From assembly GCF_014302995.1 (NCBI RefSeq), contig NZ_CP060295.1, forward strand, positions 6,563,501 to 6,627,500: 64,000 nucleotides of DNA. Reading direction: 5' to 3'. The notes under the pieces were generated by a model that worked only from the letters and a program-made list of their open reading frames with translations, ran no database searches and was not told the origin of the DNA. A program made the translations under genes and the position numbers. Source of the stretch: Variovorax sp. PAMC26660. GTDB lineage: Bacteria; Pseudomonadota; Gammaproteobacteria; Burkholderiales; Burkholderiaceae_C. Position 1 is the stretch's first letter. Each line of letters begins with the position of its first letter. Shown piece after piece: positions 2,379-29,586 of the stretch.

Positions 2379-3017
2379 ATGAACAGCACAGCCATCGCAA
2401 GCACCGCACCCGATGCCCGCCCCATCCACCCGTTGTGGATGCGCGTCACGCACTGGCTCAACGCCGTGGCGGTGCTGATTCTGGTCACGAGCGGCTGGCG
2501 CATCTATGACGCGGCGCCCTTCTTCCCGTTCACCATTCCGACCGTGATCACGCTCGGCGGCTGGCTCGGCGGTGCGCTGCAGTGGCACTTTGCAGCGATG
2601 TGGCTGCTGGTTTTCAACGGCTTCGTGTACCTGGCCATCAACATCGCCAGTGGCCGGTTCGCGGCCAAGTTCTTCCCGGTCACGCCGGCCGGCATCTGGC
2701 ACGACGCGCTGGCTGCGCTCAAGGGCCAGCTCTCGCACGCCGACCCGCGGCGCTACAACAGCGTGCAGCGCCTGGCCTACCTGTTCGTGATGCTCGACCT
2801 GATCGTGATCGTGCTGTCGGGCCTGGTGCTGTGGAAGTCGGTGCAGTTCGCCGTGCTGCGCGACCTGATGGGCGGCTACGACTTCGCGCGCCGCATTCAC
2901 TTCTTTGCGATGGCCGCCATTGTTGCTTTCGTGGCGCTGCACCTTGTGATGGTGGCTTTGGTTCCTCGCACCCTGCTGACCATGATTCGCGGCCGTGCGC
3001 CCAAGAGCTCGAAATGA
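2379..3017 (+). CDS. Cytochrome b561-like membrane protein
   Basis: A 212-residue integral membrane b-type cytochrome. Four hydrophobic segments are visible. Histidines suited to haem ligation lie in MRVTHW, LQWHF, RIHFF and ALHLV, as in the cytochrome b561 / Ni-Fe-hydrogenase b-type family, which passes quinol electrons to periplasmic partners. The ATG at 2379 is preferred because the protein then begins just before its first helix; no good ribosome site precedes it, and an in-frame ATG lies at 2358. The next gene on the strand is a Tat-exported molybdoenzyme, so this is probably its electron donor, by analogy with MsrQ (YedZ) serving MsrP (YedY). A repeat element separates the two genes. 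Confidence 0.85.
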   Translation: MNSTAIASTAPDARPIHPLWMRVTHWLNAVAVLILVTSGWRIYDAAPFFPFTIPTVITLGGWLGGALQWHFAAMWLLVFNGFVYLAINIASGRFAAKFFPVTPAGIWHDALAALKGQLSHADPRRYNSVQRLAYLFVMLDLIVIVLSGLVLWKSVQFAVLRDLMGGYDFARRIHFFAMAAIVAFVALHLVMVALVPRTLLTMIRGRAPKSSK

Positions 3018-3060
3018 CCCTCTGTCTTTTTGTTCGTCGCGTCGCTCTTCGGGATGCTGC

Positions 3061-3313
3061 TGTTCAGGGCGGCGCTCCCGCCGACACGGTGCTCTTTTTC
3101 GCGAATGTCCCCCGCTTCGCTCCTCCTTTATTTCGCGAAAAAGAGCCCCGTATCGACGTGAGCGTTATCAGAGCACTGATTGATCGGCGATCACCAGCAG
3201 CGTGTCCACGTGCGAATGACACCAGGTGCTCCCCGCAGCGAAATAAAGGAGGAGCGAAGCGGGGGACATTCGCGGAGGGGAGCACCTGGTGTCATTCGCA
3301 CAAGCCCTGAACA
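3061..3313. repeat. Dispersed structured repeat, copy A
   Basis: A 253-bp element bounded by 10-bp inverted repeats (TGTTCAGGGC at 3061-3070 and its complement at 3304-3313). Hairpin 1 pairs 3091-3103 with 3134-3146 (13 bp). Hairpin 2 pairs 3211-3234 with 3277-3300 (24 bp, perfect). The loops of the two hairpins are reverse complements: 3100-3136 matches 3238-3274 over 37 bases without a mismatch. A second copy lies at 29338-29586, roughly 90 percent identical by eye outside a diverged centre. No gene is carried, so it is non-autonomous. It fills most of the 341-base gap between the cytochrome and molybdoenzyme genes. Short open frames across it are by-products of the inverted repeats. Confidence 0.93.
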
Positions 3314-3358
3314 ACAGCGCCCCAAACGTCGACTCCAAGCAGCAAAGCAAAACCCGAC

Positions 3359-4150
3359 ATGAGAATTTTCAAAGCCCTCACGATGACCAGCCTCGACGGC
3401 GACGCCGTGGTGCGCGAAGCCCGCTCGCTGATTGCGAAGAAGCTCGACCAGCCCGCGCGCCGCGCCTTCCTGCAGCGCTCGTTGACGCTGGGCGGCCTGT
3501 CGCTGCTCACCGGCTGCAGCATCAGCGACGAAAGCCATGTCGAAGCGGCGCTGATGAAAATCTCGCGCTTCAACGACAAGGTGCAAGGCCTGATCTTCAG
3601 CCCCACGCAACTCGCGCCGACCTACACCGAAGCCGAGATCACGCGCCCCTTTCCCTTCAACGCCTTCTACGGCGAGGACGAAGTCCGCGAAGTCGACGAA
3701 GCCACCTACAAGCTCGAAGTGACCGGCATGGTCGCCGACAAGCGCAGCTGGACCCTGGCCGAACTGCGCGCCATGCCGCAGCACGACCAGATCACGCGGC
3801 ACATCTGCGTGGAAGGCTGGAGCGCGATCGGCAAATGGGGCGGCGTGCGCTTTGCCGACTTCCTGCGCCACATCGGCGCCGACACCACCGCCAAGTATGT
3901 CGGCTTCAAGTGCGCCGACGACTACTACACCAGCATCGACATGCCCACCGCACTGCACCCGCAGACGCTGCTGACGCTGACCTACGACGACCAGCCCCTG
4001 CCGCCCAAGTACGGCTTTCCGATGAAGCTGCGCATGCCCACCAAGCTTGGCTACAAGAACCCCAAGCACATCAAGGCGATGTTCGTCACCAACACCTATC
4101 CCGGTGGCTACTGGGAAGACCAGGGCTACAACTGGTTCGGAGGGAGCTGA
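3359..4150 (+). CDS. Tat-exported molybdopterin oxidoreductase (sulfite-oxidase / MsrP-YedY fold)
   Basis: Periplasmic molybdoenzyme of up to 263 residues. A twin-arginine motif (ARRAFLQRS, Arg34-Arg35) precedes a hydrophobic stretch ending in LLTGC, so it is Tat-exported and perhaps lipid-anchored. The oxidoreductase molybdopterin-binding domain fills the rest, with the molybdenum-ligating Cys in RHICVEGW. ATG 3383 is an alternative start that still keeps the Tat signal. The family includes MsrP (YedY), which repairs methionine sulfoxide in the periplasm using electrons from a membrane b cytochrome. The preceding cytochrome and following Met-rich protein and MsrA make that role likely here, but sulfite or another substrate cannot be excluded. 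Confidence 0.88.
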   Translation: MRIFKALTMTSLDGDAVVREARSLIAKKLDQPARRAFLQRSLTLGGLSLLTGCSISDESHVEAALMKISRFNDKVQGLIFSPTQLAPTYTEAEITRPFPFNAFYGEDEVREVDEATYKLEVTGMVADKRSWTLAELRAMPQHDQITRHICVEGWSAIGKWGGVRFADFLRHIGADTTAKYVGFKCADDYYTSIDMPTALHPQTLLTLTYDDQPLPPKYGFPMKLRMPTKLGYKNPKHIKAMFVTNTYPGGYWEDQGYNWFGGS

Positions 4151-4249
4151 GCGGCTGCCACAGCCGCTCGACTGCCGATGAAAGTGCGAGGCCGTGTTCC
4201 CTGGAACCGCGCCAATTTTGAAAACGAAACCTCAACTGGAAGATTCCAA

Positions 4250-4516
4250 ATGAACAAGCTCACCGCAACCCTGCTCGCAACCTGCATGGCCTTCGCTGGC
4301 GCCTCGGCCTTCGCCGCCGATGACATGGCCAAAGACGGCATGGCCAAGGACTCGATGTCCAAGGACGGAATGAAGAAGGATTCGATGTCGAAAGACAGCA
4401 TGTCCAAAGACGGCATGAAGAAGGACTCGATGGCCAAGGATTCCATGTCGAAGGACGGCATGAAGAAAGACTCCATGGCCAAGGACAGCATGGGCAAGGA
4501 CGAGATGAAGAAGTAA
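4250..4516 (+). CDS. Exported pentapeptide MXKDX-repeat protein (Met-rich)
   Basis: An 88-residue small protein. Residues 1-22 form a signal peptide ending SAFA. The mature part is ADD followed by twelve consecutive pentapeptides of pattern M-(A/S/K/G)-K-D-(G/S/E) and a final MKK, giving 13 methionines in about 66 residues. This matches the MXKDX-repeat family (TIGR02953 type). The start at ATG 4250 is fixed by the signal peptide. The neighbours are a YedY-like enzyme upstream and a thiol transporter plus exported MsrA downstream. A plausible role, as recalled for the Met-rich peptide MrpX of Azospira, is a sacrificial methionine pool for reactive chlorine or oxygen species. That role is inference here. 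Confidence 0.9.
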   Translation: MNKLTATLLATCMAFAGASAFAADDMAKDGMAKDSMSKDGMKKDSMSKDSMSKDGMKKDSMAKDSMSKDGMKKDSMAKDSMGKDEMKK

Positions 4517-29337: not shown

Positions 29338-29586
29338 ATTCGGGGCACGCTCCCGCCGACACGGTGCTCTTTTTCGCGAATGTCCCCCGCTTCGCTCCTC
29401 CTTTATTTCGTGAAAAAGAGCCCCGTATCGACGTGAGCGCTCAGAGCCGTCGTTGATCGCTGGATCACCAGCAGCGCGTCCATGTGCGAATGACGCCGGG
29501 TGCTCCCCGCAGCGAAATAAAGGAGGAGCGAAGCGGGGGACATTCGCGGAGGGGAGCTCCCGGTGTCATTCGCACAAGCCCCGAAT
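29338..29586. repeat. Dispersed structured repeat, copy B
   Basis: A 249-bp second copy of the element at 3061-3313. The terminal inverted repeats are 9 bp (29338-29346 and 29578-29586). Hairpin 1 pairs 29366-29378 with 29409-29421, with one G-T pair. Hairpin 2 pairs 29485-29508 with 29551-29574, with one G-T pair and one mismatch. The two hairpin loops are complementary over 36 bases (29375-29410 against 29513-29548). Compared with copy A, two positions in the terminal repeat and one in hairpin 2 have changed on both sides so as to keep pairing. It fills most of the 324-base gap between convergent DUF2938 and MFS genes. Confidence 0.93.

Follow-up and report, generated by a model that had tools for sequence, protein, structure and literature searches.

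The 64,000-nucleotide stretch of the Variovorax sp. PAMC26660 genome analyzed here, referred to as the window, contains two copies of a palindromic repeat that is probably a non-autonomous mobile DNA element, one that works like a REPIN although by the features tested it is not a REP. The repeat is inserted, reaches high copy number, is distributed patchily between species, lies between genes, and is depleted between divergent genes. Such repeats adjoin the ends of genes in many bacteria, and for most of them the means of copying has yet to be settled. In the present element, a fixed loop and stem length are cleanly set apart from a freely varying stem sequence.

Direct reading of the window sequence confirmed the two copies and the common layout described in the earlier note, with terminal inverted repeats enclosing two hairpins. 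The features are located as follows.

3063..3311, + strand: copy 1, terminal repeat to terminal repeat, hairpin 1 leading, 249 bp
3063-3070 and 3304-3311: copy 1 terminal repeat, TTCAGGGC and GCCCTGAA
3073..3164, + strand: copy 1 hairpin 1, 30-nt arms 3073-3102 and 3135-3164, core 3103-3134 of the pyrimidine type on the + strand, z -6.96
3210..3301, - strand: copy 1 hairpin 2, arms 3210-3239 and 3272-3301, core 3240-3271 inverted, z -10.48
3018..3062, + strand: copy 1 left outer arm, T/G-rich and A-poor, adjoining the stop codon (3017) of the upstream gene, limits uncertain
3312..3358, + strand: copy 1 right outer arm, C/A-rich and T-poor, reaching the downstream gene start, limits uncertain
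29339..29585, + strand: copy 2, between terminal repeats, flanked by convergent genes
29339-29346 and 29578-29585: copy 2 terminal repeat, TTCGGGGC and GCCCCGAA
29348..29439, + strand: copy 2 hairpin 1, core 29378-29409, z -8.36
29484..29575, - strand: copy 2 hairpin 2, core 29514-29545 inverted, z -7.76 (29485-29575 folded)

Folded as RNA, the four window hairpins gave z-scores of -7.0 to -10.5 against dinucleotide shuffles, none of which equaled them; the copy 1 hairpins folded as DNA, on both strands, gave -6.5 to -11.0 against shuffles. The compensated differences between the copies that had been claimed are present: the terminal repeat has two (A-T to G-C and G-C to A-T), and hairpin 2 has one. 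Uncompensated differences between them also occur, namely, one A-T to G.T and one T-A to T.T in hairpin 2 and one G-C to G.T in hairpin 1. Elsewhere in the window, positions 4178-4516 encode a small protein of pentapeptide repeats (M-x-K-D-x), specified by a 15-bp tandem repeat.

When elements of other genomes are taken into account, the family is built from a single kind of hairpin, with a 30-bp outer stem, a conserved asymmetric internal loop (GAATGTCCYCC opposite TCCYCCTTKATTTC), and at the tip a small hairpin whose length varies. What reads as a simple loop in the window is thus a composite of GAATGTCCYCC, the tip hairpin, and TCCYCCTTKATTTC, in that order. The sequence of the outer stem is largely free, and the stem length and internal loop are fixed; 30-nt arms and a core of 32-53 nt, with tips of 7 to 28 nt, give hairpins of 92-113 nt. 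Open frames cross the element, but the variable tip lengths and the core spacings (134-139 nt in the window's own genome, G000), which are not multiples of three, break frame; a protein-coding gene was rejected on these grounds, in agreement with the earlier reading that none lies inside.

Pairing was analyzed in 404 sequence-distinct hairpins gathered under 76 genome labels; 155 of the hairpins come from G000, and a few labels are duplicates (e.g., G074 and V. boronicumulans PgBe293 are a single genome). The Watson-Crick fraction averaged 0.823 at stem positions 1-28, compared with 0.25-0.34 for slid registers, and fell sharply from 0.82 at position 30 to 0.22 at position 31. In a set of 60 hairpins drawn from these 404, with a mutual stem Hamming distance of at least 8, 84.3% of cells paired and both partners varied in 35 of 37 pairs; for the outer helix, counting GAA/TTC, the figure was 32 of 33. 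The covariation score of this set was 0.631, against 0.158 ± 0.008 for shuffled partners, which ignore relatedness (0/500 reached the real value), and at most 0.130 for slid registers, which do not ignore it. The weakest of five covariation measures was further pair types, where 5/500 shuffles reached the real value. The claim of a structured, dispersed element with strong covariation is therefore borne out against both controls, and the absence of covariation from other copies, which the earlier note had named as the observation that would undo its claim, is not what these hairpins show. A fixed core with changing but matching stems suggests that a protein reads the folded shape, and it is probably the conserved internal loop that is read by a protein; conservation of the stems would fit RNA equally well. 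In DNA present in many copies, covariation does not necessarily point to a functional RNA.

Because the hairpins were gathered by a pattern that fixes the core, the conservation of the core is partly a matter of ascertainment. The two variable loop pyrimidines change reciprocally, being C/T in 163, T/C in 23, T/T in 3, and C/C in none of 189 distinct cases outside G000; a few C/C and T/T cases do occur among the core-pattern matches of genus, family, and f14 genomes. A central C-TNC-G, or C-GNA-G on the other strand, is found in 45/90 distinct tips and in 3.7% of shuffled centers. C-GNA-G is an unusually stable DNA triloop.

Most of the 404 hairpins form head-to-head pairs, 159 in all, and for the other 86 no partner was detected. 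Twenty-four loci outside G000 bore one G000-like core; of their partner cores, 12 were intact, 2 were altered at 1-4 places, and 10 went undetected, which indicates that decayed or lost partners are common. Unusual arrangements were also seen. In L057 (G033), a different palindrome with arms resembling CTTCGACAAGCTCAG occupies the expected place of the second hairpin, downstream of the hairpin, and a Lysobacteraceae MAG (L101, 2298-2497) carries two hairpins in the same orientation ∼154 nt apart, unlike the usual head-to-head pair. One copy in G042 (L347; the orthologue of site L341 5597-5845) has a duplicated core and tip in each hairpin, as though a single change had spread to the partner.

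The 32-nt core matches G000 (7.39 Mb, one contig) at 168 forward and 169 reverse positions with up to 3 mismatches; the reversed-pattern control gave 0+0 matches, so the core matches are not due to chance. The hairpins collected from this genome form 76 head-to-head pairs, their cores separated by the spacing given above, with 3 hairpins unpaired, and 40 stretches chosen by position rather than similarity held 38 paired elements and 2 unpaired cores. A generalized core was present in 62/81 genomes of the genus, at 0-287 copies per genome, and in 55/399 genomes and 23/141 genera of the family, 5 of these genomes belonging to the window's own genus. In the class it was present in 3/369 genomes (G000, one of the same family, and G506) and in f14, the family of G506, in 11/149, again including head-to-head pairs. 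We take f14 to be the Lysobacteraceae, since its member G939 has the same core as the named Thermomonas contig L094. Host contigs among the matches listed belong to Ramlibacter, Rhodoferax, Hydrogenophaga, Pseudorhodoferax, Xylophilus, Brachymonas, and Polaromonas and, further, to Luteimonas, Lysobacter, Thermomonas, and Stenotrophomonas; a Stagnimonas contig with the core may be misbinned Ramlibacter, judging from its similar stems. The suggestion that this is a catalogued Variovorax repeat is therefore too narrow, as the core is shared with other Comamonadaceae-type genera and Lysobacteraceae. A covariance model run on 14 chosen genomes found no match in 7, all of them among the nine pattern-negative genomes, and 1 match in each of the other two; with at most 150 candidates scored per genome, the counts are lower bounds, at least 19 in G035, at least 91 in G924, and at least 150 in G000. 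Carriage of the element by viruses or plasmids was considered and rejected: the core was found in 1 IMG/VR contig, and the plasmid collection yielded 3 Variovorax records of 1.2-1.3 Mb, whose best places are 77-78% identical to copy 1.

The element is inserted, and its empty sites can be seen in relatives; no transposition event itself was observed. At the copy 1 site, the motif-to-start gene distance is 380 bp in G000, compared with 32-53 bp in the 13 of 29 relatives whose loci could be parsed, and no core was detected in any of the 29 relatives' loci (the best 30 of 73 matching genomes, own genome included, from 101 genomes searched). Copy 1 amounts to ∼330-350 bp of extra DNA between genes that are nearly contiguous in relatives. 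A 19.9-kb stretch of G000 with four elements was compared with 16 chosen relatives. Of the 13 relatives readable at the first site, 6 had it filled, 6 had it empty, and 1 retained a single-hairpin remnant; the second was empty in 10/12, with 2 apparent remnants; the third was empty in 4/4; and at the fourth the relatives carry ∼1.2 kb of other DNA. No general target-site duplication was detected, as within-element repeats were no better than those between elements (P = 0.78; 74 elements). A CTGAMATG-like stop-start motif, an apparent 8- to 9-bp repeat, lies on both sides of a few insertions between tightly spaced genes of G000 (L008, L028, L075, L284, and L287).

At the filled shared site, the G000 element is 71-80% identical to six orthologues and, on average, 91.8% identical to 74 copies of its own genome, whereas the flanks are 89-90% identical between G000 and G062. 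Own-genome identity likewise exceeded orthologue identity in G062 (0.87 versus a mean of 0.78; 4 copies), G038 (0.90 versus 0.80; 3 copies), and G074 (0.90-0.92 versus 0.80; 3 distinct copies); G067 hardly shows the effect (0.83 versus 0.82; 1 comparison copy), and G045 and G042 have no comparison copies. Since a copy is closer to copies of the same genome than to its orthologues, copies at this one shared site have either been homogenized within each genome or entered the same spot anew. That a copy in a shared position is rewritten offers a direct handle on how copying works. At another shared intergenic site, the hairpins lie 1.7 kb apart in G000 (L071, 1515-3277) and 6.9 kb apart in G007 (L073, 582-7501), with cargo inside; the cargo of L073 matches Lamassu LmuA and LmuB, the latter divided between two open frames. 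The idea of an autonomous parent carrying its transposase between the hairpins was rejected for these two long-spaced pairs, which hold other cargo.

Gene context was taken from a codon-usage gene finder trained on the window, and some orientation calls rest on it alone. Among 74 distinct G000 elements (of ∼168), 40 lay between codirectional genes with hairpin 1 first and 12 in the reversed orientation (P = 0.00013), 20 between convergent genes, and 2 between divergent genes. In other genomes, 166 pairs and singles were considered, of which 22 sat at the edge of a locus and 1 fell within a called gene; the 143 scored were codirectional in 84, convergent in 53, and divergent in 6 cases (an earlier count of 174 had taken in a few G000 loci). 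The background of 664 adjacent gene pairs, from the window and 95 named loci that themselves hold elements, comprised 490 codirectional, 91 convergent, and 83 divergent pairs, against which divergent gaps are depleted both in G000 (P = 0.003) and elsewhere (P = 0.0006). None of the 74 G000 elements was inside a called gene. The element looks as if it settles between genes, mostly just after them.

In 36 G000 copies profiled, the ∼40 nt beyond the terminal repeat on each side are A-poor (4-7% versus ∼17%) and T/G-rich, in inverted orientation, and all 36 have TTCRGGGY-type terminal repeats on both sides with at most 1 mismatch. Complementarity between a copy's own two outer arms did not exceed the cross-copy level in these copies. 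The hairpin-1 outer arm has a loose consensus, often beginning at the upstream stop codon, and its pattern gave 22 matches in the loci examined (three of them at one place), each followed by a core at a distance of 44-87 nt. The full Variovorax element is roughly 340 bp, consisting of two hairpins, the terminal repeat TTCRGGGCG, and T/G-rich arms of ∼40 to 45 nt, with approximate outer limits.

The earlier note had also proposed that the two loops pair with each other, as an RNA switch or a kissing pair. The loops are indeed complementary over ∼37 nt in both window copies, the complementary arms around them extend over 49 nt (92%) in copy 1 and 48 nt (90%) in copy 2, and the joint duplex was lower in energy than the two separate halves in 12/12 G000 copies folded as RNA and in 6 folded as DNA. 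The complementarity of the constant arms follows from the duplication of one hairpin head to head, and the tips match in the G000 copies seen because both are mostly GCTTCGC. Outside G000 and G064, perfectly complementary loops were found in 0/58 pairs and identical tips in 1/58; with G000 alone set aside, tips match in 19/83 pairs, 18 of them in G064. The joint duplex is not conserved across genomes and nothing suggests that it is maintained, which leaves a switch or kissing pair scarcely credible.

The enzyme that copies the element was sought among Y1 transposases. G000 has a single Y1_Tnp match, followed by a gene that we take to encode glutamate synthase, and matches occur in 78/81 genus genomes, including all 19 that have zero copies of the repeat. 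With Y1_Tnp scores of at least 48 bits, a cutoff picked after the scores were seen, the repeat was present in 40/40 genomes at a median of 50 copies; with lower scores, 19/38 genomes were without it and the median was 1 copy (Spearman 0.59). This association is confounded by phylogeny and could be due to phylogeny alone. Hairpin-bearing genomes without a Y1_Tnp match are G018 and G022, both <90% complete, and G035, which is one contig and 99% complete. No core lay within ∼1.5 kb of the Y1 gene in 30/30 loci. For REPs, a Y1 transposase acting in trans has been proposed to move the folded single strands (PMC2817692, PMC8266576), and RAYT enzymes are described in the latter as reading folded single-stranded REPs through the GTAG tag, bulges, and loops. 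By analogy, copying by a Y1 enzyme would be plausible here.

In the reading we favor, that of a REPIN-like mobile element, one hairpin with a 30-bp, largely free stem, the conserved internal loop, and a small tip would be the unit, and two units head to head, with the short terminal repeat and T/G-rich arms, would make up the Variovorax element. It would be copied as folded single-stranded DNA by an enzyme in trans, would be tolerated downstream of stop codons, a place where it is nearly harmless, and might also cap or process mRNA ends, as REPs are thought to do. Within this reading, a Y1/HUH transposase of the RAYT type is the most plausible candidate for the copying enzyme, though with the balance somewhat against it. 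It is doubtful, though conceivable, that the element represents a distinct mobile class whose machinery reads loop shape and stem length rather than stem sequence, each genome rewriting its stems; the recognizer would then be either a new kind of recombinase acting on folded strands or a Y1 transposase that recognizes its target in a way not seen before. Intercistronic or 3′ hairpins could alternatively act as a functional RNA that stabilizes, processes, or attenuates mRNA, with the loop as a protein or RNase site and dispersal secondary. The near-absence between divergent genes, the orientation bias in codirectional gaps of G000, the strong covariation, and the reciprocal pyrimidine change within the loop agree with such a role; it is nevertheless unlikely, since the element is missing at the same gene pairs in many close relatives and so is not needed there, copy number differs widely between congeners, and the apex of half the distinct tips would suit DNA at least as well as RNA.

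The terminal inverted repeats, non-coding character, empty sites, and high copy number would also fit a conventional MITE belonging to a DDE-type insertion sequence and mobilized through its ends, with the hairpins as passengers. This is quite improbable, given that target-site duplication is not general, that the internal loop rather than the ends is the best conserved part, that no parent element was seen, and that hairpins without a detected partner exist. Less probable still is a mutational origin of the covariation, in which palindrome template switching and gene conversion keep the arms of a decaying repeat complementary. Such an origin could draw on the within-genome homogenization and on the G042 copy with its core duplicated in both hairpins, but pairing ends abruptly after stem position 30, and Watson-Crick templating cannot give reciprocal loop pyrimidines.

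The window had no Rfam 15 match at gathering score, and positions 2950-3420 had none at E ≤ 10. A description of the core was absent from the open-access literature searched; three open-access papers sharing 12- or 15-letter core words appear from their listed entries to concern unrelated subjects, and term searches of PMC3733652 and PMC6006769 gave no match to the element. The earlier note's reservation that the element might prove to be a known REP, BIME, or MITE family is half borne out, in that it acts in the manner of a REPIN or MITE and yet fits none of the catalogued families tested. Correia/NEMIS, ERIC, and RUP are MITE-like repeats, compared here by description rather than sequence, and like the present element they have short terminal inverted repeats, are non-coding, and are intergenic; unlike them, it shows no general target-site duplication and has its conserved part inside. 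Integron attC sites have conserved ends and a variable center, the inverse of the present element. They resemble it, as do the subterminal hairpins of IS200/IS605, in being single-stranded hairpins that are recognized by their shape together with a small number of unpaired bases (in part PMC8266576); the 30 Y1 loci hold no hairpins of the element and hence no tnpA-like gene beside hairpins there. The REP/BIME/REPIN repeats with their RAYT (TnpA-REP) transposases, as presented in PMC2817692 and PMC8266576, are likewise high-copy, intergenic, palindromic inverted doublets that are patchy between relatives, with stem irregularities in many members. Membership among REPs was rejected: the GTAG/CGTC tag at the palindrome foot is missing, the stem feet differing freely between members and the nearest conserved outer motif in G000 being TTCRGGGCG instead, and the transposase gene is not flanked by copies. 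The present element shares with REPs the inverted extragenic doublet and differs from them in its hairpins of 92-113 nt, compared with REP palindromes of 20-40 bp, and in joining a stem of largely free sequence to an internal loop that is conserved.
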